64,000 bases of DNA, taken from assembly GCF_037996645.1 (NCBI RefSeq), contig NZ_JBBMXV010000001.1:252168-316167 (forward strand), written 5' to 3'. The notes below the pieces were generated by a model. It searched no databases, was not told the DNA's origin, and was given only the letters and a program-made list of their open reading frames with translations. The stretch is from Halalkalicoccus tibetensis (GTDB lineage: Archaea > Halobacteriota > Halobacteria > Halobacteriales > Halalkalicoccaceae). This document shows, piece by piece, positions 46,949-58,356 of this stretch (position 1 is the first letter of the stretch; every line of letters begins with the position of its first letter). The position numbers were made by a program, and so were the translations under genes.

Positions 46949-47803
46949 ATGGGAATACTCTCGCGAATGTCGTACGTCATCCGGTCGAAGGTCAACGCGG
47001 CCCTCAACCGGTCGGAGGACCCCCGGGAGACGCTCGACTATTCGTACGAACAGATGCGCGACCGCCTGCAGGACGTCAAACAGGGGATCGCCGACCTCAC
47101 CACCCAGAAGAAGCGCCTCGAGATGCAGAAACGCCGCCTCGAGGAGAACGTCGAGAAACACAACGAGCAGGCCCGCGAGGCGGTGGCCCAGGACCGCGAC
47201 GACCTCGCGCGCCAGGCCCTGGAGAAGAAGAAGGCGAAGATGAGCCAGATCGAGCAGCTCGAGACCCAGATCGCGGACCTTCAGGACAAACAGGAGAACC
47301 TCGTCGAGCAGAAGAACGAGCTACAGAACCGCATCGAGCAGTTCCGCACCAAGAAGGAGACGATGAAGGCCCAGTACGAGGCAAGTGAGGCCAGCGTCCG
47401 CGTCTCGGAGGCGATGACGGGCGCGGGCGACGAGATGGCCGACGTCTCGCGGGCGATCGAGCGCGCCGAGGAGGACACCGAGGAGATGGAGGCGCGCTCG
47501 GCGGCGATGGACGAGCTGCAGGACACCGGCGCGTTCGACGACGCGCTCTCGGACAAGGACAGCATCGACCGCGAACTCGACGCCGGCCGGACCGACAGCG
47601 AGGTCGAGGCCGAGCTCGACACGCTGAAGGGCGAGATGGGCAAGGAAACGGTCTCGGAGGACGAGAGCGAACCCGCCGAAAGCGAGAGCGAGGCCGAAGC
47701 CGGGATGGACGTCGACCTCGACGAGGAGGTCGACGTCGAGGAGGAGCTCGAGGCGAGCGAGATCGACGAGGAGCTCGAGGAGCTCCGCGACGAGGGACGA
47801 TAA
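46949..47803 (+). CDS. pspA: PspA/IM30 (ESCRT-III-like) membrane-stress protein
   Basis: 284 residues. The N-terminal GILSRMSYVIRSKVNAALNR and the long coiled coil from about 30 to 190 (ETLDYSYEQMRDRLQDVK, MQKRRLEENVEKHNEQARE, KKAKMSQIEQLETQIADL) match PspA/IM30/Vipp1. The final ~85 residues are a strongly acidic halophilic extension. The family polymerises on damaged membranes and maintains proton impermeability. Its position beside HPP, UspA and unknown membrane proteins suggests a membrane-stress neighbourhood. Confidence 0.92.
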   Translation: MGILSRMSYVIRSKVNAALNRSEDPRETLDYSYEQMRDRLQDVKQGIADLTTQKKRLEMQKRRLEENVEKHNEQAREAVAQDRDDLARQALEKKKAKMSQIEQLETQIADLQDKQENLVEQKNELQNRIEQFRTKKETMKAQYEASEASVRVSEAMTGAGDEMADVSRAIERAEEDTEEMEARSAAMDELQDTGAFDDALSDKDSIDRELDAGRTDSEVEAELDTLKGEMGKETVSEDESEPAESESEAEAGMDVDLDEEVDVEEELEASEIDEELEELRDEGR

Positions 47804-47818: not shown

Positions 47819-48334
47819 TCAGTCCTCGAAGGTCGGATGCGTGTCGCCGACCAGCCGCTCGAACAGCCACAGGGCCGCGGCGTGGACCTCGACGAGGACG
47901 ACGACGCTCGCGACGATGATCGCGACCTGGACCGGCGTCGAGAGCAGCCCGAGCGAGACGATCAGCGTGGTCGCACACGCCGGCGCGTGGTTCGTGTCCG
48001 TCGCGATCATCCCCCAGCTGGTCGCGACGATCGAGAGGACGCCGCTCGCGGCGAGCCGGAGCCCCTCGGGCGAGAACGCGGCCGGCGTGCTCGTGATCGA
48101 GACGCCGGCCGCGAGCAGGCTGTAGGCGAGCAGGCCGGCGACGCCGCCGATGAGGTGGCTCCCGACGACCTTGTACGTTCGCGTGCGCTCGCCCCGGCGG
48201 TCGAACGCGAGGATGAACGCCGAGGGGCCGAGGCTCGGAAAGACGAACGGCTGGCCGCTCGCCCAGGCGACGAGCCCCAGCACGGTGAACAGGAAGCCCG
48301 CATAGAGGCTGGTCCCGAGCCGCCGTCGTACCAT
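47819..48334 (-). CDS. HPP family membrane protein (first copy)
   Basis: 171 residues from MVRRRLGTSLYAGFLF, with five hydrophobic segments. PFVFPSLGPSAFILAF and TNHAPACATTLIVSLGLL are the family blocks; the eponymous HPP reads HAP here. HPP proteins in chloroplasts and cyanobacteria transport nitrite. A second copy lies at 50499-51071 with a NarK-like transporter between them. Alternative starts upstream lie in the uspA promoter region. Confidence 0.85.
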   Translation of the reverse strand: MVRRRLGTSLYAGFLFTVLGLVAWASGQPFVFPSLGPSAFILAFDRRGERTRTYKVVGSHLIGGVAGLLAYSLLAAGVSITSTPAAFSPEGLRLAASGVLSIVATSWGMIATDTNHAPACATTLIVSLGLLSTPVQVAIIVASVVVLVEVHAAALWLFERLVGDTHPTFED

Positions 48335-48438
48335 ACGTCTCCTCGATCCGCCCGTCCATAAGCCCCGTTCGATCCGGCCGCGTCGCGACCGTCGTACTCG
48401 GCCCCAGACTCTTGGCGCTCGAGCGACAGGGTTCGGGC

Positions 48439-48861
48439 ATGGATCAACGGATCCTCGTCCCGTTCGACGGATCGGACGCGTCCGAGACCGCGCTCGAACG
48501 AGCACTCGAGGAGAACCCCGACGCCGAGATCACGGCGCTCAACGTCCTCGACTCGGCGGAACTGGCCTACGGCGGCGTCCAGGGCAGCGCGGCCGAGAGC
48601 CTGACCGATGCCCAACGGGAGGAGGCAGAAGAGCTGCTCGAGCGGGCCGAGGCCCGCGCCGCCGACCATGAGGGGGGCTTCCGGACCGCCCTCGAGGTCG
48701 GCTCGCCGGGCGAGGCCATCGTCGAGTACGCGAACGAGAACGACATCGACCATATCATCATGGGGAGCCACGGCCGGTCGGGGCTCTCGCGGATCGTCGT
48801 CGGGAGCGTCGCCGAGACGGTCGTCCGGAACTCGCCGCTGACGGTGACGATCGCTCGCTAA
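48439..48861 (+). CDS. Universal stress protein
   Basis: 140 residues from MDQRILVPFDGSDASETALE. The ATP-binding signature GSHGRSGLSRIVVGSVAETVVRNS (G-2x-G-9x-G-S) spans about 110-133. It is a single-domain ATP-binding UspA, often a partner or regulator of neighbouring transporters in haloarchaea. It is divergent from the first HPP gene and convergent with the MFS gene. Confidence 0.93.
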   Translation: MDQRILVPFDGSDASETALERALEENPDAEITALNVLDSAELAYGGVQGSAAESLTDAQREEAEELLERAEARAADHEGGFRTALEVGSPGEAIVEYANENDIDHIIMGSHGRSGLSRIVVGSVAETVVRNSPLTVTIAR

Positions 48862-48922
48862 TCAGCCCCTTTTCCTCTATGGGACCCCCCTCGGGGTACG
48901 AATCCGACGCCGACCCTCCCGA

Positions 48923-50260
48923 TCAGTGCATCGCCGACTCGTCGGCGGCCCCCGAGGCATCGGGGCCGACGAACTTCAGCGCGACCGAGACCGCGACGCA
49001 GGCCGCGCTCAGCCCGGCGATGACGGAGAACCCGCGCGCGTAGCCTATCTCGCCGAAGACGTCGACGAACACGCCCAGGAGGGGGAGCACGAGAAGCGTC
49101 CCCGCACCGCCGATGCCGCCGATCCAGCCCGAGGCCCCGCCGACGGCGTCCGGGACGTACTTCGGGACGAGCTCGAAGACCGCCGCGTTCGCGATCCCCA
49201 TCCCCGTGCCGAGCACCATCATACCGACGAACGAGGCGGTGATCCCCGTCGCGAACGTGGCGATCCCCGCGCCGGCGACCATCACGGCGAAGCTGACCGC
49301 GGCGACGTCCTCGCCGCCGAAGCGGTCGCTGAGGCTACCGCCAGGGATCCTGATCAGCGAGCCGTAGACGACGAACACGCCCGCGAACAGGCCGGCCATC
49401 GTCAGGCTCATGTCGTGAAACAGGTTCCAGTAGGTCGGATACCAAGTCGTCAGCGCGGTGAACCCACCCCCGTAGGAGACGGTATAGAGGAAGACGAGCA
49501 CCCATGTCCAGTGGTTCATCGAGGACTCCCGCAGCGAGTCCCACGTATCGCCCGCCGGGAAGACCTCCTGGCCCATCTCCTCCGCGACCCCCTTCGCCTT
49601 CTCGGCGTCCAGCCCCCTATCGAGGAGCTGGAAGTAGTAGGGGTTCGCGCCGTAGGCGAAGTAGAGAACGGTCACGACGATCATGAACACGAGCCACGCC
49701 GAGTACGCGATCGCCAGTCCCCCGATCCCGATCAGGACGGGAATGAGCGAGTTGAACACCCCGGGACCGATGTTGCCCGCCCCGGCGAACGCGCCCATCG
49801 CGAACCCCTGTCTATCCTCCGGGAACCAGTAGGAGGTCTGGGCGATCCCGACCGAGAACGTCGCGCTGCCGGCCCCGGCCAGGATCCCGAAGACGAGCAG
49901 CGGGACGTAGAGATGCGACCCGAAGTCGTCGGGATAGAAGAGGACGAGGGTCCCGACCAACCCCGCGATCCCGACGATCGTCATCGCGAGAAGGATCAGG
50001 ATCGGCGTCCGGGCACCGATGTCGTCGACCCAGGCGCCGAACGGTACCCTGAGGATCACCTTGCTGATGTGGGGCGAGGAGAGCAACAGCCCCAACAGTG
50101 CGCCTGAGATACCGAGTGCCTCCTGAAACGTCGGCCCCGCGACGCCGTAGAAGGCGATCGTCGTCAGGCCGGCGAAGAAGGAGAGCGTCGCCATCGCCAG
50201 CCCACGCCTGGGGTTTCCAGTGATCCCGTACTCCTCGCGCGGGTCGCCGTTGTCTCCCAT
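48923..50260 (-). CDS. MFS transporter, nitrate/nitrite porter (NarK)-like
   Basis: 445 residues and about 12 membrane helices. GMGIANAAVFELVPKYVPD and GGASGWIGGIGGAGTLLVLP in the second half match the nitrate-signature region of NarK/NasA porters; SSPHISKVILRVPFGAWVDD and RIPGGSLSDRFGG are the MFS loop motifs. The central cytoplasmic loop (about 200-250) is short. Nitrate or nitrite uptake or efflux is likely, though no nitrate reductase gene is in the window. An SD-like AAGGAG precedes the ATG, unusual in this window. Confidence 0.83.
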   Translation of the reverse strand: MGDNGDPREEYGITGNPRRGLAMATLSFFAGLTTIAFYGVAGPTFQEALGISGALLGLLLSSPHISKVILRVPFGAWVDDIGARTPILILLAMTIVGIAGLVGTLVLFYPDDFGSHLYVPLLVFGILAGAGSATFSVGIAQTSYWFPEDRQGFAMGAFAGAGNIGPGVFNSLIPVLIGIGGLAIAYSAWLVFMIVVTVLYFAYGANPYYFQLLDRGLDAEKAKGVAEEMGQEVFPAGDTWDSLRESSMNHWTWVLVFLYTVSYGGGFTALTTWYPTYWNLFHDMSLTMAGLFAGVFVVYGSLIRIPGGSLSDRFGGEDVAAVSFAVMVAGAGIATFATGITASFVGMMVLGTGMGIANAAVFELVPKYVPDAVGGASGWIGGIGGAGTLLVLPLLGVFVDVFGEIGYARGFSVIAGLSAACVAVSVALKFVGPDASGAADESAMH

Positions 50261-50266
50261 CAGCGA

Positions 50267-50272
50267 CTCCTT
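50267..50272 (-). promoter_or_regulatory. Shine-Dalgarno-like site of the MFS gene
   Basis: AAGGAG on the minus strand lies 6 bases before the ATG at 50260. Most genes here appear leaderless, so this mRNA probably has a leader; AATTTATTTC (about 50300-50309) upstream could be its TATA box. Confidence 0.45.
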
Positions 50273-50295
50273 ACCGTTCGCGACCTTTAGTGGTT

Positions 50296-50331
50296 GTGAA
50301 ATAAATTATTTTGAACTCTACAATATTTCAC
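50296..50331. promoter_or_regulatory. Inverted repeat in the MFS/HPP divergent promoter region
   Basis: GTGAAATA (50296-50303) and TATTTCAC (50324-50331) form a perfect 8-base inverted repeat with a 20-base spacer, in an AT-rich tract. It overlaps the likely MFS promoter. A second strong TATA, CTATAAATATTTAA (about 50354-50367), points towards the HPP gene and predicts a leader of about 100 bases. Confidence 0.5.
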
Positions 50332-50498
50332 TCGTTCAATTATGGATCCTATAGGAGCTATAAATATTTAAAACGGACAGCGAGGCTGCGGGCGAAACGT
50401 GTCGGATTCGAACGGATCGCGCCGTTTTCCGTCCGGAGGGGCGGCGGGCGATACGATACCAGTGGCTACTTGCGGCAGGCTCCCCGAACAGTAGGTCG

Positions 50499-51071
50499 AT
50501 GATCAGCGAGGCGCTCCGTGGCAGCATCAACGACAAGATCAGCGCCGGGATCTACGTCGCGAGCCACTTCATCGTCCTAGGCATCATCGCGCTCTTGACG
50601 GGCCAGCCGTTCATCTTCCCGAGCCTCGGCCCCTCCGCCTACCTGATGGCGACCGGGGAGACCAAGCGAGCGGCGGGCGGCTACCACGTCATCGGCGGGC
50701 ACTTCGTGGCGGTGATCACCGGCTCGATCGCCTACCACCCGATCGCCGACGGGCTGGTCGCGACCGAGGAGCTCGGCGAGGCTGGGCGGTTCGCCCCCGA
50801 AATCTTCCAGCTCGCCGCGAGCAGCACTGTCGCGATGGTACTATGTACCGTCGGAATGCTTGCGGCCAAGACCAACCACCCTGCAGCGTGTGCGACGACG
50901 CTGATCGTCGCGCTCGGGCTGCTCACCGGCCCGTTGAACATCACGATCATCATGGGATCGGTCGTGATCCTATACGTCCTTCACGAGAAGGTGCTCTACC
51001 CCGGCGCCAAGCGCCTCGGCCTCGAGCCCGATGACCCCCGGCCCGTCGACGACGACGACAAGGACCCGTGA
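50499..51071 (+). CDS. HPP family membrane protein (second copy)
   Basis: 190 residues with five hydrophobic segments. PFIFPSLGPSAYLMAT, YHVIGGHFVAVITGSIAY and TNHPAACATTLIVALGLLTG are the family blocks; the HPP signature reads HPA. It is a paralogue of the protein at 47819-48334 and carries an acidic C-terminal tail (PDDPRPVDDDDKDP). A nitrite or anion transport role is suggested by plastid HPP proteins and by the adjacent NarK-like gene. Confidence 0.87.
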   Translation: MISEALRGSINDKISAGIYVASHFIVLGIIALLTGQPFIFPSLGPSAYLMATGETKRAAGGYHVIGGHFVAVITGSIAYHPIADGLVATEELGEAGRFAPEIFQLAASSTVAMVLCTVGMLAAKTNHPAACATTLIVALGLLTGPLNITIIMGSVVILYVLHEKVLYPGAKRLGLEPDDPRPVDDDDKDP

Positions 51072-51086
51072 ACCACGCCCGACGGG

Positions 51087-52094
51087 TCACTCCTCGATAT
51101 CGACCCGCGGGACGAACGGTCCGAAGTCGGCGGTTCGGCTCGTGATCGTCGCGATGCGGAGCGTGTAGGCGAGCAGCACCACGAACGGGAGGAACACGAG
51201 CGTCACCGCGGCGCTGACGACGAACACGAGCCCCGGTGTGGGGAGCGTCTCGATGATCCGGCCGTACGTCATCATGAAGATCCCGCCGCCCAGGAGGGTC
51301 GGGAACCCGACGTACAGCAGGAGTTTCGAGAGGTACGCGAGCTCGTGTTGCATGTACATCGTTTTGAACGTCTGGCGGGCGACGGCGAGGTGACCGAGCA
51401 GTTCGATGAGCGTTTCGAACCGCTCGACGACGTCGTCGGAAAGCACATCGTCGTGCTTCTCGCGAATCATCCGGACGGCATAGAGGTGCGCGCCGTTGAA
51501 GTGTCCGAGCACCGCCGACAGCGCCTCGAACGTTCCCAGGTCGGCCCCTTCGAGCGCCTCGTTCACCTGCTCGCCCTCGTCCTCGATCGCGCCGACGAGC
51601 TCCCCGATCGAGGAGCTCAGCTCCGGATCGTCGAGGGGCTCGACCGCCGACTGCAGCGTTTCCGCCTGATCGGCGACCGCGCTCACGATCGACTGCAGGA
51701 AGTCGGCCGGCGATGCCGGGCTGATGCTGGATCCGGTCACCGTCTCCACCTCCCGTCGGAACGAGACCATCCCATCGAACCGGTCCTGGAGGTCGCTCGG
51801 CCAGCCCATCTCCTGGGAGAGCACGAGCTGGTTGATCGCGAGCACGATCGTGATGAAGGGGAGCGTCCCGCCGACGATCGAGCCGACGAGCGTCGTCGCG
51901 GTCGCGGGATCGGTCACGGGGATATAGCCGGCGAACCCGATCGCGACGCAGACCGAGAAGACGACCGCCGAGACCAACGCCACGAGCACGAACCGGCTCC
52001 CGTCCAGGAGCAGCCAGCGTTTGACCGGCGACTCGCGCAGCCGTTCGTGGACGAGGTCGCTCTGTGGGGTCTCCTCGTCGATCGGTGTGCCCAT
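51087..52094 (-). CDS. Unassigned four-helix membrane protein, paralogue A
   Basis: 335 residues from MGTPIDEETPQSDLV. TM1 at about 34-55, TM2 about 68-92, a cytoplasmic helical domain (about 96-255), TM3 about 258-280 and TM4 about 290-315. TM2 ends in INQLVLSQE (Gln89, SQE 93-95). The soluble part has LGTFEAL and TFKTMYMQHELAYLSK; the tail has YTLRIATITSRTADFGPFVP. The same motifs recur in the three next genes. No known family is recognised; a channel, transporter or membrane sensor are all possible. Confidence 0.72.
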   Translation of the reverse strand: MGTPIDEETPQSDLVHERLRESPVKRWLLLDGSRFVLVALVSAVVFSVCVAIGFAGYIPVTDPATATTLVGSIVGGTLPFITIVLAINQLVLSQEMGWPSDLQDRFDGMVSFRREVETVTGSSISPASPADFLQSIVSAVADQAETLQSAVEPLDDPELSSSIGELVGAIEDEGEQVNEALEGADLGTFEALSAVLGHFNGAHLYAVRMIREKHDDVLSDDVVERFETLIELLGHLAVARQTFKTMYMQHELAYLSKLLLYVGFPTLLGGGIFMMTYGRIIETLPTPGLVFVVSAAVTLVFLPFVVLLAYTLRIATITSRTADFGPFVPRVDIEE

Positions 52095-52163
52095 GTACCG
52101 GCTACCGACGACGGCCACAAAAAGGGACCCGTGGATCGAGCGCTCCGCGTCCGTTCGTCGAGC

Positions 52164-53207
52164 TCACTCCTCGTCGTAGGCGAGTTCGAACGGATCGTCC
52201 TCCGGCGCTTTCTGCGGGATCATGGGGCCGATGGAGGCCGTCCGGCGCGCCAGCGTCGCCATCCTGAGGACGTACGACGCCATCAGCGCGAGGGGCGAGG
52301 CGACGACGAGCAGGAGCGCCGTCACGGCGTACGGGAGCAGCGGGGGCGCGATCACGGCCCCGCCGACGCCGCCGTACAGAAACCCGATCGTCATCGCCGC
52401 GAACACCGAGGGGACCCCACAGTAGAGCGTCTCGCGTGAGAACTTGGTGAGCTCTCGCTGCATGTACGTCGTCTTGAAGTGGGTCCGGGCGATGTTGAAC
52501 AGCTCGAGCGTATCGAGCAGGTCGTCGAACGCCTCGACGGTCTCTTCGGAAAGCTCGTCACCGTGCTGGCTCTTGAGGCGTCGGGCGGCGTAGATCTGCC
52601 AGGCGTCGTTGTAGTCGGCCGCCGCCGCGACCACGTCGAACGTCCCGAAGCTCGAGCTCTCGAGTGTGTCTGCGACGTTGGTCGTGCTCTCGTGGACGCC
52701 TGAGACGTACGACTCGATGAGCGCCCGGGGCCCGCCGTCACCTCCGCCGTCGACGGACTCCCCGAGCGTGTCGGCCCGCTCGTGTATCGTGTCGACGAGG
52801 AGGTAGAACAGCGCGACCGGCGAGGCGGGGCTGGCCGGGGCGTCCGAGGCGTCCTCGATCTCCTCACGGAACCCCATGACGCCGCTCAACTCGTCGCGGG
52901 CCTCGCCCGCCGAGTTGAACTCCTGTGAGAGGATCATCTGGTTGATCGACACGACGAGCGTGACGAGCGAGAACGTCCCCGCGATCATCCCGCCCGCCAG
53001 CCGCGTGATCGAGTCGTCGTTCTGGAAGGCAATGACGCCCAGTTTATCCAGTCCGAGGAACCAGACGCCAACCCCGAGGAGGACCGCCGCGGCGACGAGA
53101 AGGCGACTACCGTTGACCAGGAACCACTCGACGGGACTTGCTCCCGACTCCCGACCCATCTCGCTGCCGTGTGACTCCAACGTCTCGCCGTCTTCCGACG
53201 TGTCCAT
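52164..53207 (-). CDS. Unassigned four-helix membrane protein, paralogue B
   Basis: 347 residues from MDTSEDGETLESHGS; an ATG three codons earlier is possible. Same architecture as its neighbours: TM1 about 35-53, TM2 about 70-94 ending SINQMILSQE (Gln90, SQE 94-96), a helical cytoplasmic domain with SFGTFDVV and HFKTTYMQRELTKFSRETLYCG, TM3, TM4, then YVLRMATLARRTASIGPMIP. It is the most divergent copy, with a longer acidic N-terminus and a Gly-rich insert (DGGGDGGP, about 162). It is divergent from paralogue C. Confidence 0.72.
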   Translation of the reverse strand: MDTSEDGETLESHGSEMGRESGASPVEWFLVNGSRLLVAAAVLLGVGVWFLGLDKLGVIAFQNDDSITRLAGGMIAGTFSLVTLVVSINQMILSQEFNSAGEARDELSGVMGFREEIEDASDAPASPASPVALFYLLVDTIHERADTLGESVDGGGDGGPRALIESYVSGVHESTTNVADTLESSSFGTFDVVAAAADYNDAWQIYAARRLKSQHGDELSEETVEAFDDLLDTLELFNIARTHFKTTYMQRELTKFSRETLYCGVPSVFAAMTIGFLYGGVGGAVIAPPLLPYAVTALLLVVASPLALMASYVLRMATLARRTASIGPMIPQKAPEDDPFELAYDEE

Positions 53208-53439
53208 GGCCCACGCTACTGTCGTCGCCCCCAAAAAGGACGGCGTTGCAACACTCCTCTCCCGTCTGGGTCGCCCTCGCTGCCGATGCCAGGAACCGCC
53301 GCCGGCCGCGCAGCGGCAAGCCCAACCACTATTTTCGTTCGCTTTCGCTACATGGTATGTATGAATCGTAGCCGCGGTAGTCGGTGCGATCGGTTCGGTT
53401 CGGGTGGACGGGACGGCGTCGAAGCGGGGCTGACGTAGA

Positions 53440-54465
53440 ATGGGATCGGATCCGGACGGTTTCGTCGAGCGCATACGGAACAGCCAGTTCCGACTCTGGT
53501 TACTGTTGCGGCTCAACCGCTGGGTGCTTGCCGGCGCCATCCTCTCGATCGTCTTCGTGTCGCTCGTCGTCGCGACCCAGGCCCGGATCAGCCCGTTTCG
53601 GGTGCTGGTGTCCGACAACGACGCGCTCTGGTGGATCTTCTCCGCGTTCATCGGCGCCATCATCACCGGCGTCACGCTGGTCGTCTCGATCGGCCAGATC
53701 GTGCTCTCCCAGGAGCTCGGCGCGGTCGGCGACCAGCGTGAGCGCATGGAGGAGTCGATGGACTTCCGGAAGGACATCGAGGACGAGATCGACCTCTCGG
53801 TGAGCCCGCCCGAGCCCGCCGCCTTCCTCAAACTGCTCGTCGACCGGACCGGGGCGCAGGCCGAGCACCTCCAGGAGGTCGTCGAGGACGAGCGCGACGA
53901 GGAGCTCAAGGAGAAGATCGACGACTACGTCGACGACCTGCTCGAGAACGCCGAGGAGGTGAGCGATGGGCTAGATAACGCCCAGTTCGGCACGTTCGAG
54001 GTGCTCTGGTCGTCGTTCAAGTTCAACTACTCCTGGAAGATCTTCGAGGCCCGCCGCATCAGGAACGACCACCGGGAGTCGCTCTCGGAGGACGCCGAGG
54101 AGACGTTCGACGAGCTGCTCGAACGGCTCAAGCTGTTCGGACCGGCCCGCGAACACTTCAAGACGCTGTACTTCCAGTGGGAGCTCGTCAACGTCTCGCG
54201 CGCGCTGCTGTACGCCTCGATCCCCGCGCTGATCACCATCGGGATCATCCTGATGAACGTCGGCCCGACCGCCTTCCCCGGTACGACCCTCGGGATCGAC
54301 AACATCGTCTGGGTGGCCGCCTTCGGGTTCACGGTCGGCGTCACGCCGTTCGTGATCCTGCTGTCGTACACCCTCCGGATCATGACGCTCGCGAAGCGCA
54401 CGCTGGCGATGGGGCCGTTCATCCTCCGGAAGGCCGAGCGCGAGGAGGACATCGACTGGTCGTAA
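53440..54465 (+). CDS. Unassigned four-helix membrane protein, paralogue C
   Basis: 341 residues. TM1 about 28-46, TM2 about 66-90 ending SIGQIVLSQE (Gln86, SQE 90-92), GAVGDQRERMEESMDFRKDI, SPPEPAAF, QFGTFEVLW, a Trp/Tyr-rich NYSWKIFEARRIRNDH, and HFKTLYFQWEL (Phe240-Lys-Thr), TM3 about 256-274, TM4 about 287-312, then YTLRIMTLAKRTLAMGPFIL. It is very close to paralogue D, including long stretches identical at DNA level. Function unknown. Confidence 0.75.
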   Translation: MGSDPDGFVERIRNSQFRLWLLLRLNRWVLAGAILSIVFVSLVVATQARISPFRVLVSDNDALWWIFSAFIGAIITGVTLVVSIGQIVLSQELGAVGDQRERMEESMDFRKDIEDEIDLSVSPPEPAAFLKLLVDRTGAQAEHLQEVVEDERDEELKEKIDDYVDDLLENAEEVSDGLDNAQFGTFEVLWSSFKFNYSWKIFEARRIRNDHRESLSEDAEETFDELLERLKLFGPAREHFKTLYFQWELVNVSRALLYASIPALITIGIILMNVGPTAFPGTTLGIDNIVWVAAFGFTVGVTPFVILLSYTLRIMTLAKRTLAMGPFILRKAEREEDIDWS

Positions 54466-54503
54466 CGCTCGGGGTTTTTCCCACCCGGCTTCGACCGGGC
54501 GGT

Positions 54504-55535
54504 ATGGCGAACGATGACGAGTACGAGACGACGATGCTCGAACGGGCCGAGGGGAGCGAGCTGCGACTGTACGTACTGTTGCGCCTCAACCGTTGGGTGC
54601 TCTCGGGGGCGATCCTCGCGATCGTCTTCGGGGCGCTGGTGGCGATGAGCGCACTGGAGCTCGGACCGTTTCGCGACATCGTCCAGGACGCCGACGCGAT
54701 CCAGAACATCTTCAGCTCGATGTTCGGCCCGATCATCACCGGCGTCACGCTCGTCGCGACGATCGGCCAGCTCGTGCTCTCCCAGGAGCTCGGCGCGGTC
54801 GGCGACCAGCGCGAACGCATGGACGAGGCGATGGAGTTCCGACGCGACATCGAAAGCGAGAGCGATCTGGACGTCAGCCCACCCGAACCCGCCGCGTTCC
54901 TGCGCGAGCTCGTCGCCGCGACCGAGGACCGCGCCGAACGGCTGCGGGAGGCCGTCGAGGACGAACGCGACGAGGAGCTCAGGGAGAACGTCAACGAGTA
55001 CGTCGATAGCCTCGATAAGAACGCCGAAGCAGTCAGGGAAAAGATCGAGGACGCACAGTTCGGCACGTTCGGCGTGATCTGGGCCGCGCTCGACTTCAAC
55101 TACTCCTGGAAGATCTTCCAGGCTCGCCGGATCCGCGACGAGTACGAGGGCTCGCTCTCCGACGACGCCAACGAGGCCATCAGCGACACGATCGAGATGC
55201 TCAAGCTCTACGGGCCGGCCCGTGAGCACTTCAAGACGCTGTACTTCCAGTGGGAGCTGATCAACCTCGCGCGCGCGCTGCTGTACGCCTCGATCCCCGC
55301 GCTGATCGTCACCGCGGGGATGTTGATGTACGTCGACGGCGGCTCGCTGCCCGGGGCCACGCTCGGCGTCGACAACCTCGTCTGGCTCACCTCGGGGGCC
55401 TTCACGATCACGCTGATCCCGTTCGTGGTGCTGATCGCGTTCATCTTCCGGATCGCGACGGTCGCCCAGCGCACGCTGGCGATGGGGCCGTTCATCCTCC
55501 GGGAGTCGAGCCGGGACGCCGAAAGCGACGTCTGA
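54504..55535 (+). CDS. Unassigned four-helix membrane protein, paralogue D
   Basis: 343 residues from MANDDEYETTMLERAEG. Near-duplicate of paralogue C: TM2 ends TIGQLVLSQE (Gln89, SQE 93-95), then GAVGDQRERMDEAMEFRRDI, SPPEPAAF, QFGTFGVIW, NYSWKIFQARRIRDEY, HFKTLYFQWEL and AQRTLAMGPFIL. It starts 38 bases after the stop of C in the same direction and is probably cotranscribed. The cytoplasmic domain is highly charged and could oligomerise as a coiled coil. Confidence 0.75.
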   Translation: MANDDEYETTMLERAEGSELRLYVLLRLNRWVLSGAILAIVFGALVAMSALELGPFRDIVQDADAIQNIFSSMFGPIITGVTLVATIGQLVLSQELGAVGDQRERMDEAMEFRRDIESESDLDVSPPEPAAFLRELVAATEDRAERLREAVEDERDEELRENVNEYVDSLDKNAEAVREKIEDAQFGTFGVIWAALDFNYSWKIFQARRIRDEYEGSLSDDANEAISDTIEMLKLYGPAREHFKTLYFQWELINLARALLYASIPALIVTAGMLMYVDGGSLPGATLGVDNLVWLTSGAFTITLIPFVVLIAFIFRIATVAQRTLAMGPFILRESSRDAESDV

Positions 55536-55590: not shown

Positions 55591-55720
55591 CGGATCGGGA
55601 TGCGAACGCGGCCGAGGACGCCCGGTTCGGTTATCAAGGACCAGATTGAAGCGCGCTCGTTGCGACCACTCCAGTGTATGAGTTCGAAGGTCGTTCGCGA
55701 CCGAACGGGTGGTCGGTAAT

Positions 55721-56221
55721 ATGGATCGGGACGAGGGGATCGGGCGCCGACGACTGCTGGCCACGCTCGGATCGGGCGCTGCAATCGGTGTCGCGGGCTG
55801 TCTGGGCTCGGGGTCGAGCTCCGAGCCGGCCTATGAGTCCGGCGATGTTCCCGGCGAGATCGACGGCGAGGAGCGGACCGCCGAGGAGACGACGGCCGCC
55901 GAGTCGATGGCCGAGCAGACGCCACAGGCCGATCTCGCCCCGCTTGACGCGCTCTCGTTGGTCGAGCACGGGTTCGTCTTCGAGGAGGGTTACACCGGCT
56001 CGACGGTCCAGGGGACGGCCGAAAACGACGGCGACGAGCGCCTCGACAGCGCCGAGGCTCGCGTGCGCGTCTACAACGACGAGGGCGAACAGTTGGGGCT
56101 GTACCTCGATTCGGTCAGCGATCTCGAAGGGGGCTCGGAGTGGGCCTTCGAGGTGGTCCTGCTCGAATCGCCCGAGGACATCGCGGACTACGACATCGCG
56201 GCCGTGGGCCTACCGGACTGA
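55721..56221 (+). CDS. Tat-exported lipoprotein with FxLYD-like domain
   Basis: 166 residues from MDRDEGIGRRRLLATLG. The twin-arginine signal GRRRLLATLGSGAAIGVAGC ends in a lipobox cysteine (about Cys26), so the mature protein is probably lipid-anchored outside. A Thr/Glu/Ala-rich spacer leads to a beta-rich domain: TVQGTAENDGDERLDSAEAR, VRVYNDEGEQLGLYLDSVSD and WAFEVVLLE, as in FxLYD domains. Its role is unknown. It overlaps the convergent racemase gene by 12 bases. Confidence 0.8.
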   Translation: MDRDEGIGRRRLLATLGSGAAIGVAGCLGSGSSSEPAYESGDVPGEIDGEERTAEETTAAESMAEQTPQADLAPLDALSLVEHGFVFEEGYTGSTVQGTAENDGDERLDSAEARVRVYNDEGEQLGLYLDSVSDLEGGSEWAFEVVLLESPEDIADYDIAAVGLPD

Positions 56222-57244
56222 GACGCCGGTCCCGCGCCCGACGCCCGCGAGGTCGATCTCCCCCTCGGAAAGCGGGACGCCGTCGTATGGGTCCTCCGCG
56301 AGCAGCAGCGAGCCGTCGAGGTCGGCGTAGTCGAGCAGCGGCGCGAGGTGACACGCCGCCGCGATCGAGGCGTTCGACTCGGTCATGCAGCCGAGCATCG
56401 TCTCCAACCCGTGGGCGCGGGCCGCCGCGAACATCGCGCGGGCCTCGCGCAGGCCCCCACATTTCATCAGCTTGACGTTCGCGATGTCGGCGATCTCGGC
56501 GACTCGGGAGATATCGTCGAGCGTCACGCAGGACTCGTCGGCCGCGATCGGTAGCGCCGAGCGCTCGCGGACGAAGCGCATCCCCTCGGGGTTCCCGGCG
56601 GGGACGGGCTGCTCGACGAACTCCACGCCGTACTCCGCGAGTGCGTCGATTTTCCGGACGGCCTCGCGGGGCGACCACGCCTCGTTGGCGTCGACCCGGA
56701 TCGTCGCGTCGGGCGCCTCGTCCCTGATCGTCTCGATGATCTCCTCGTCCCGTCCCGTCCCGAGCTTGATCTTCAACGTGGAGTAGCCCCGTTCGCGGGC
56801 GGTCGCGGTCTTCTCGCGCATCGCCCCCGTCTCGTCGATCCCGATCGTGTAGGAGGTCTCGACCACCTCCTCGGGATCGAAGCCCCAATAGCGATACAGC
56901 GGCAGATCCAGGCGCTTGGCGACGAGGTCGTGCAGCGCGATCGACACCGCACACCGTGCGGCGGGGTTCAGGTTCACCCGCTCGACCATTCGGCGTTCGA
57001 TCCGTGCGAGCTGATGGGGGTCGCCCACCTCCTCGACGACTGCGAGGAGGTCGGGCAGGACGGCCTCGACGGTGGCGGCCGTCTCGCCGTAGTGCGCGGA
57101 GGGGGCGGCCCCGCCGATCCCGATGTGCTCGCCGTCGCCCACCCGGACGATCACGTTCTCGGTCTCCTCGGTCGTGCCGCGCGCGATGGTGAAGGGGAAC
57201 TCCAGGGGCAGGGTGACCCGCTCGAACCCCGTTTCGAGCGTCAC
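56210..57244 (-). CDS. dgcA: Enolase-superfamily epimerase, DgcA (N-acetyl-D-glutamate racemase)-like
   Basis: 344 residues from a GTG at 57244 that overlaps the upstream stop by 4 bases (GTGA). Enolase-superfamily site: STLKIKLGTG (KxK), IRVDANEAWS (Asp), VEFVEQPVPAGN (Glu), IAADESC (Asp) and ANVKLMKCGG (Lys). This is the dipeptide epimerase/N-acylamino acid racemase group. Pairing with a DUF1611 protein matches the DgcN-DgcA D-glutamate catabolic pair described in marine bacteria. A plain dipeptide epimerase is the alternative. Confidence 0.82.
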   Translation of the reverse strand: MTLETGFERVTLPLEFPFTIARGTTEETENVIVRVGDGEHIGIGGAAPSAHYGETAATVEAVLPDLLAVVEEVGDPHQLARIERRMVERVNLNPAARCAVSIALHDLVAKRLDLPLYRYWGFDPEEVVETSYTIGIDETGAMREKTATARERGYSTLKIKLGTGRDEEIIETIRDEAPDATIRVDANEAWSPREAVRKIDALAEYGVEFVEQPVPAGNPEGMRFVRERSALPIAADESCVTLDDISRVAEIADIANVKLMKCGGLREARAMFAAARAHGLETMLGCMTESNASIAAACHLAPLLDYADLDGSLLLAEDPYDGVPLSEGEIDLAGVGRGTGVSVR

Positions 57245-58254
57245 AACAACGCCTCCAGCAGCTCGTCGGCCCCGAAGCGGACCGGGTCCGTCGCCGGCAC
57301 GCCCAGATCCGAGCCGTACTCGTCGATCGCGTCGCGGGCGGGGCCCTCGTCGACGATGTCGACCGTGTTGAGCGCGCCCGCGGCGACCTCCGTCCCGTGG
57401 ACCGGGGCGGCCAGCCCCTCGTAGAGGTCGACGTACTCCTCCATCGGCGGGATCTCGAACTCCTCGTAGCCGTGGATGGCCTCGCGGCCCGCGGCGTGAC
57501 AGAGCACGAGCTGGTCGGGCATCGCGCCGTGGAGGATTCCACACGTGACCGCCGAGTAGGCGGGATGGATGATCGTCCCCTGGCCCTCGACGAACAGGTA
57601 GTCGTGCTCGTCGCCCTTCTCGAGGATCATCTCCTCGACGGCGCCCGCGGTGAAGTCCGAGACGACGCGGTCGATCGGGTTGCCCCAGCCCTCGATCATG
57701 ATCCCCGTTTGACCGGTGGGGATGAACGCGGCGTCGACCCCCTGCTCCTGGGCGGCGCGCGCGAGTTCGAGCGAGACGGTCATCTTCCCCACCGAACAGT
57801 CCGTCCCCACCGTCAGGATCACCTCGGCGTCGACCTCCTTCGCTACTCCCTGGCTCACCGTGAGGTCGTCGTCGGGCTTGCGGACGTCCCACAGTTCGCA
57901 GTCGTTCTCCTCGGCCAGCTCGACGAACTCGGGGTCCTCCGAGAGGAAGTAGTGCAGCCCCGAGATGACGTCACAGCCCCGCGAGAGGGCGTTCTCGACG
58001 TCCTCGCGCCAGCTCTCCTCGAACCCGCCGCCGATCGGAGCGATCCCGATCAGGAGGGCGTCGGCCTCCTCGACGTCGTCCATCCCCTCGACGATCGGGG
58101 CGTCCGGGGCCCCGGGGACGTACTCGGCGACCTGCCCGCCGGCGCGCTCGCGATCGAGGACGGCAGTAACGTCGTAATCGCCGTAGCGGATGACGCCGAC
58201 GGCCGTTTTCGCGCGCTCCGGGAACTTCTCGTGTGCGAGAACCGCGACTTCCAT
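57241..58254 (-). CDS. dgcN: DUF1611 protein, DgcN (D-glutamate N-acetyltransferase)-like
   Basis: 337 residues from MEVAVLAHEKFPERA. An N-terminal Rossmann-like domain (ADALLIGIAPIGGGFEESWR, CDVISGLHYFLSEDPEFVEL) precedes a P-loop-like domain with VGTDCSVGKMTVSLELARAA (about 152-171), GQTGIMIEGWG and EGQGTIIHPAYSAV. It is translationally coupled to dgcA. In bacteria DgcN acetylates D-Glu with acetyl-CoA, and DgcA racemises the product. GGGTTAAC lies 27 bases upstream of the start. Confidence 0.82.
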   Translation of the reverse strand: MEVAVLAHEKFPERAKTAVGVIRYGDYDVTAVLDRERAGGQVAEYVPGAPDAPIVEGMDDVEEADALLIGIAPIGGGFEESWREDVENALSRGCDVISGLHYFLSEDPEFVELAEENDCELWDVRKPDDDLTVSQGVAKEVDAEVILTVGTDCSVGKMTVSLELARAAQEQGVDAAFIPTGQTGIMIEGWGNPIDRVVSDFTAGAVEEMILEKGDEHDYLFVEGQGTIIHPAYSAVTCGILHGAMPDQLVLCHAAGREAIHGYEEFEIPPMEEYVDLYEGLAAPVHGTEVAAGALNTVDIVDEGPARDAIDEYGSDLGVPATDPVRFGADELLEALL

Positions 58255-58356
58255 ACGGGGTGGAGGCACAACTGGATGTTAACCCTTTAGATGCCGGTCG
58301 GGATAGGGACGGACGAACGATGGCCGCAAGCCCTCCCCGCATCCACGTGATCATGA

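Follow-up and report, generated by a model that had tools for sequence, protein, structure and literature searches.

We examined a 64,000-nucleotide stretch of the Halalkalicoccus tibetensis genome, hereafter the window, in which a sequence-only reading had described four consecutive genes for paralogous membrane proteins of no recognizable family. An ORF check of the window confirmed that the four genes, designated A through D, are intact, begin with ATG, and lack internal stops, with two on the minus strand and two on the plus strand (Table 1). A and B form one same-strand pair and C and D another, B and C are divergently oriented, and C and D are probably co-transcribed. Alignment of the four proteins revealed that D shares 60% identity with C, whereas A shares 36% and B 34%, and that the shared motifs reported in the original reading are indeed invariant or nearly so. 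Features common to all four (C numbering) are Q86, LSQE at 89–92, GTF at 184–186, FKTxYxQxEL at 240–249, RxxT at 313–316, RT at 320–321, and GP at 325–326, and the remaining reported motifs are at least nearly invariant. In phylogenetic trees, A, B, and the C/D group represent old lineages that stand apart from each other. The B subfamily is ancient and adjoins pspA in Natrialbaceae.

Table 1. Genes A through D and neighboring features, in window coordinates
Feature	Coordinates	Strand	Description	Evidence
pspA (PspA/IM30, PF04012)	46949..47803	+	sole PF04012 match in the genome; conserved neighbor of the family	E 1e-27
HPP-family membrane protein (TM_HPP)	47819..48505	-		profile match
Universal stress protein (Usp)	48439..48861	+		profile match
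MFS transporter (MFS_1)	48923..50260	-	NarK-like gene of the sequence-only reading	profile match
Second HPP-family protein	50499..51071	+	HPP recurs among array loci	profile match
Paralogue A	51087..52094	-	335 aa with four TM helices predicted; the ORF stays open as far as GTG 52118	motifs; AlphaFold2 pTM 0.81
Paralogue B	52164..53207	-	347 aa; same strand as A, 69 nt gap	motifs; tree
Paralogue C	53440..54465	+	341 aa	AlphaFold2 pLDDT 88, pTM 0.82
Paralogue D	54504..55535	+	343 aa; starts 38 nt past C	motifs; tree
Small secreted protein	55709..56221	+	Tat/lipoprotein-type N-terminus (RRRLLATLG...GCLG); recurrent neighbor	no Pfam family
Enolase-superfamily (MR_MLE) enzyme	56210..57244	-	conserved flank of pspA locus	
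DUF1611 protein	57241..58269	-	conserved flank of pspA locus	

The neighbors named in that reading, HPP, NarK-like, UspA, and PspA genes, were all recovered by profile matching, and four genes (HPP, Usp, MFS, and HPP, in mixed directions) stand between pspA and genes A through D. The window is an expanded form of a pspA–family–MLE–DUF1611 locus in which the outer markers are retained. Elsewhere in the genome, on contig C5 (L224:8508-11304), another family member lies next to a close copy of the MFS gene, accompanied by two Usp genes and a fragment of HPP; this segment and window positions 48412-51071 look like a duplicated block.

Searches with proteins A through D against Pfam, NCBIfam, PHROGs, and PADLOC returned only weak, chance-like matches and no credible family, and a Pfam scan of 107 family members likewise gave no credible match. 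Nothing convincing emerged when the PDB was searched by sequence and by profile. Fold searches of the PDB with models of C and A produced no significant match (the lowest Foldseek E values were 0.47 and 0.083), and the C model returned nothing at E under 0.001 from a viral structure library. The absence of a recognizable family, as stated in the sequence-only reading, is supported. Tweety homologues (TTYH), which have a five-TM topology, recur for both models with Z values of 10–13, mostly through the four-helix bundle, but these scores are level with those of unrelated four-helix bundles, and whole-chain rmsd values are 11–13 Å. Phage records contained no match to the family, and among the plasmid matches listed, all are from haloarchaeal plasmids. 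PspB, PspC, and LiaI-LiaF profiles are not among the Pfam matches listed for the four window proteins and the 107 members. DUF2254 (PF10011) was rejected as a relative, as it gave one sub-threshold Pfam match with an E value of 0.61 and an hhalign probability of 4%. Matches to YtxH (13 of 107 members, best E 5.7e-5 in one member) and to Apolipoprotein, phrog_24201, and similar entries fall in the charged helical domain and were read as matches of composition.

The AlphaFold2 model of the divergent protein A, which was generated separately, also reached a pLDDT of 88 and has the same plan as that of C, namely short amphipathic helices, two TM helices, a helical domain of ~140 residues, and two further TM helices. 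The models therefore agree with the order of two helices, helical domain, and two helices that had been proposed from the sequence. In the C model, TM1 (residues 27–47) and a long TM2 (62–93) precede the helical domain (~94–232), which is followed by a long TM3 (233–273) and TM4 (288–323). Judging from the distribution of charges, the acidic helical bundle is predicted to lie in the cytoplasm together with both termini.

Nearly all invariant polar residues are located at the predicted cytoplasmic ends of the TM helices, where they comprise Q86, S90, and E92; R237, E238, K241, T242, Y244, Q246, and E248; R313, T316, R320, and T321; and R27. Conservation is maximal at these ends of TM2, TM3, and TM4. 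The Gln/SQE motif had been placed inside a hydrophobic helix and was read as suggesting a pore or coordination site. However, in the C model it sits at the cytoplasmic end of the 32-residue helix 62–93 (the side being assigned from charges), away from mid-membrane, and its residues group with R27, K241, E248, R313, and R320 at the cytoplasmic face. Nor was any channel fold matched. Because the invariant polar residues lie at the cytoplasmic TM ends rather than mid-membrane, we favor an interaction or sensor site over a pore.

A class survey restricted to genomes of at least 90% completeness identified the family in 275 of 292 haloarchaeal genomes, often in multiple copies, where copy numbers are lower bounds because few candidates were scored per genome. 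In the rest of the phylum, a single genome (G309) among ~240 non-haloarchaeal genomes carries the family. Nanohaloarchaea contigs (L064 and L074) also bear it. The family, which was undescribed before, is almost confined to halophilic archaea. The G309 copy (L230, G309:C2) is isolated in a region of 37% GC with no pspA nearby, and was possibly transferred. The H. tibetensis genome has 12 copies, whereas many genomes show only one, which counts against an obligate hetero-complex. The expectation of a conserved multi-copy cluster was borne out, but copies are also found singly and scattered (eight of the 12 in H. tibetensis), and thus the cluster represents a local expansion and not a fixed unit.

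We assessed linkage to pspA with an unbiased set of pspA (PF04012) genes from 80 haloarchaeal genomes, one from each, by scanning 6 kb on either side. A family gene was present within this distance at 43 of the 80 loci, compared to about one or two expected from random placement, and in 39 of the 43 linked loci the nearest family copy is downstream of pspA on the same strand. Binomial values for this linkage take no account of shared ancestry, and therefore the size of the effect carries more weight than the p-value. The synteny with PspA genes that had been proposed as a check is strongly evident, and the suggested direction of membrane stress is supported. When the genes flanking 80 family loci were clustered, PspA was the commonest neighbor (52 loci). 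In genera distant from each other (Haladaptatus, Halegenticoccus, Halohasta, Halarchaeum, Halorientalis, and Halogeometricum), pspA is followed by just one family gene, which has the same orientation, whereas Natrialbaceae and the window have two to five family genes of differing types at the pspA locus. In one genus (g23), 14 of 15 genomes carry the family, nearly always as a single copy, and in each of the five genomes with known positions for both genes it is adjacent to pspA. Intergenic gaps between pspA and the family gene are 44–135 nt at the nine adjacent loci measured. The remaining 37 pspA loci lack a family gene within 6 kb, two genomes have family genes but no detected PspA, and several have PspA without the family. 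Since each gene is found without the other, neither strictly requires its counterpart.

PspA is an ESCRT-III-type membrane-repair protein, and the gene order leads us to give roughly even chances to the reading that the family serves haloarchaeal PspA as a membrane partner, either as anchor or as sensor, and has been duplicated and diversified. This reading draws on the pspA linkage, the same-strand downstream order, the membrane plan, and precedents from Bacillus subtilis and Haloferax volcanii. Two features of the partner class are seen in the family: same-strand gene linkage to pspA, which is observed, and insertion in the membrane with a cytoplasmic portion that could reach PspA, which is predicted with a topology based on charges. 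In such a role, the TM part would sense a disturbed bilayer or an ion leak, a conserved network (R27, E92, K241, E248, R313, and R320) located where TM1 through TM4 meet the cytoplasm might relay the change, and the helical bundle would dock PspA at the site of damage, as YdjG and YdjH do for PspA in B. subtilis. Scattered and array copies could have been adapted to respond to different triggers or to work with different partners. More tentative, and on balance doubtful, is the broader proposal of a halophile-specific membrane-stress system in which a new four-TM fold would serve as sensor and recruitment platform for PspA, with up to about a dozen paralogues per genome reading different insults at saturating salt.

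SPFH proteins work alongside PspA in B. subtilis. In that organism, the membrane proteins YdjG and YdjH (with YdjI), encoded in the pspA operon, resemble the family in gene position and in its proposed role, as YdjG and YdjH are needed for PspA to reach the membrane (PMC8581546). They differ in that they act with an SPFH protein, whereas no recurrent SPFH gene was seen at the haloarchaeal pspA locus, although a stray copy does have one nearby (L227). PspB and PspC are also integral membrane partners of PspA, as is proposed for the family, but they are small proteins that cross the membrane once or twice (PMC11237479) rather than four times, and neither is among the matches listed for the family. 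In H. volcanii, the level of PspA rises at high salt (PMC3235422), and the TM protein Hvo2637 is encoded directly downstream of pspA (PMC9239133); the nearest family gene is likewise downstream at most of the linked loci. Unlike the family, Hvo2637 is known from one report with weak bPH_4 and EphA2_TM assignments, in which no family was recognized (PMC9239133). We consider Hvo2637 a putative family member; if it proves to be one, this one-off annotation would be corrected. Archaeal PspA networks have been called largely unknown (PMC9239133), and haloarchaeal PspA now gains a specific, widespread, and genetically testable candidate for a membrane partner. The family nearly marks the haloarchaea, yet it has no model in the libraries searched.

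The linkage might instead reflect passive gene order, wherein the family gene belongs to a conserved stretch of chromosome next to pspA but has no joint function with it. The MLE and DUF1611 genes are also conserved next to pspA, even where the family gene is missing, and hence inherited gene order may account for some of the linkage. However, strand and order are constrained, the link is seen in two settings (MLE/DUF1611 flanks or a threonyl-tRNA-synthetase-like gene), and the pspA-adjacent copies come from several deep lineages of the family tree. These differing flanks and lineages argue against a purely inherited order, which we judge to be very improbable. An oligomeric ion channel, either anion-selective or mechanosensitive, is a stronger alternative, but we nevertheless find it unlikely. 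Bestrophins and the bestrophin-like PF14023 proteins have four TM helices and a helical cytoplasmic part, and the family recalls them in its long TM2, TM3, and TM4 that continue into the cytoplasmic helical domain. The polar residues would then form a cytoplasmic vestibule or gate, for which similar polar clustering would be seen, and pspA would be linked through shared protection of the membrane potential in osmotic shock. Also consistent with a channel are the MscS, Na+/H+ exchanger, HPP, and MFS genes near stray copies or in the window, and the expansion of the family in organisms of high salt. Against it, the conserved polar residues are not distributed along a TM face, and the fold searches gave no significant match: bestrophin 5t5n ranked 31 by Foldseek (E 1.3, TMq 0.18) and fell outside the best 50 by VIA-align. 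Moreover, in a scan of 59 haloarchaeal genomes, including that of H. tibetensis, neither of the bestrophin-type profiles PF14023 and PF25539 reached its cut-off, and no such profile is among the Pfam matches listed for the 107 members.

The eight H. tibetensis copies located at a distance from pspA, whose neighborhoods contain MscS, Na+/H+ exchanger, Usp, SPFH, and BAT-HTH_10 genes, make wider or additional roles likely. A further explanation is that the family acts as a scaffold of general use in membrane stress or regulation and has several partners (a DUF4177 protein, BAT-HTH_10 regulators, and Usp), among which PspA is only one. At two loci (L225:4923-6202 and L228:3768-5029), a DUF4177 gene and the start of the family gene share 4 nt, which suggests translational coupling; four of the eight stray copies (L221, L223, L224, and L225) have BAT-HTH_10 regulator genes, which could regulate them, within ~2 kb; and Usp genes occur at several loci. 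However, these links were seen at few loci, haloarchaea commonly carry BAT-HTH_10 and Usp genes, and the pspA link is far above chance, such that we regard the scaffold as improbable and continue to prefer a membrane partner of PspA. Among the other genes near stray copies are those for an MscS-type mechanosensitive channel (L222:1605-2564) and an SPFH/Band_7 protein (L227:8914-10032). DUF4177 also underlies the match in several of the plasmid hits.
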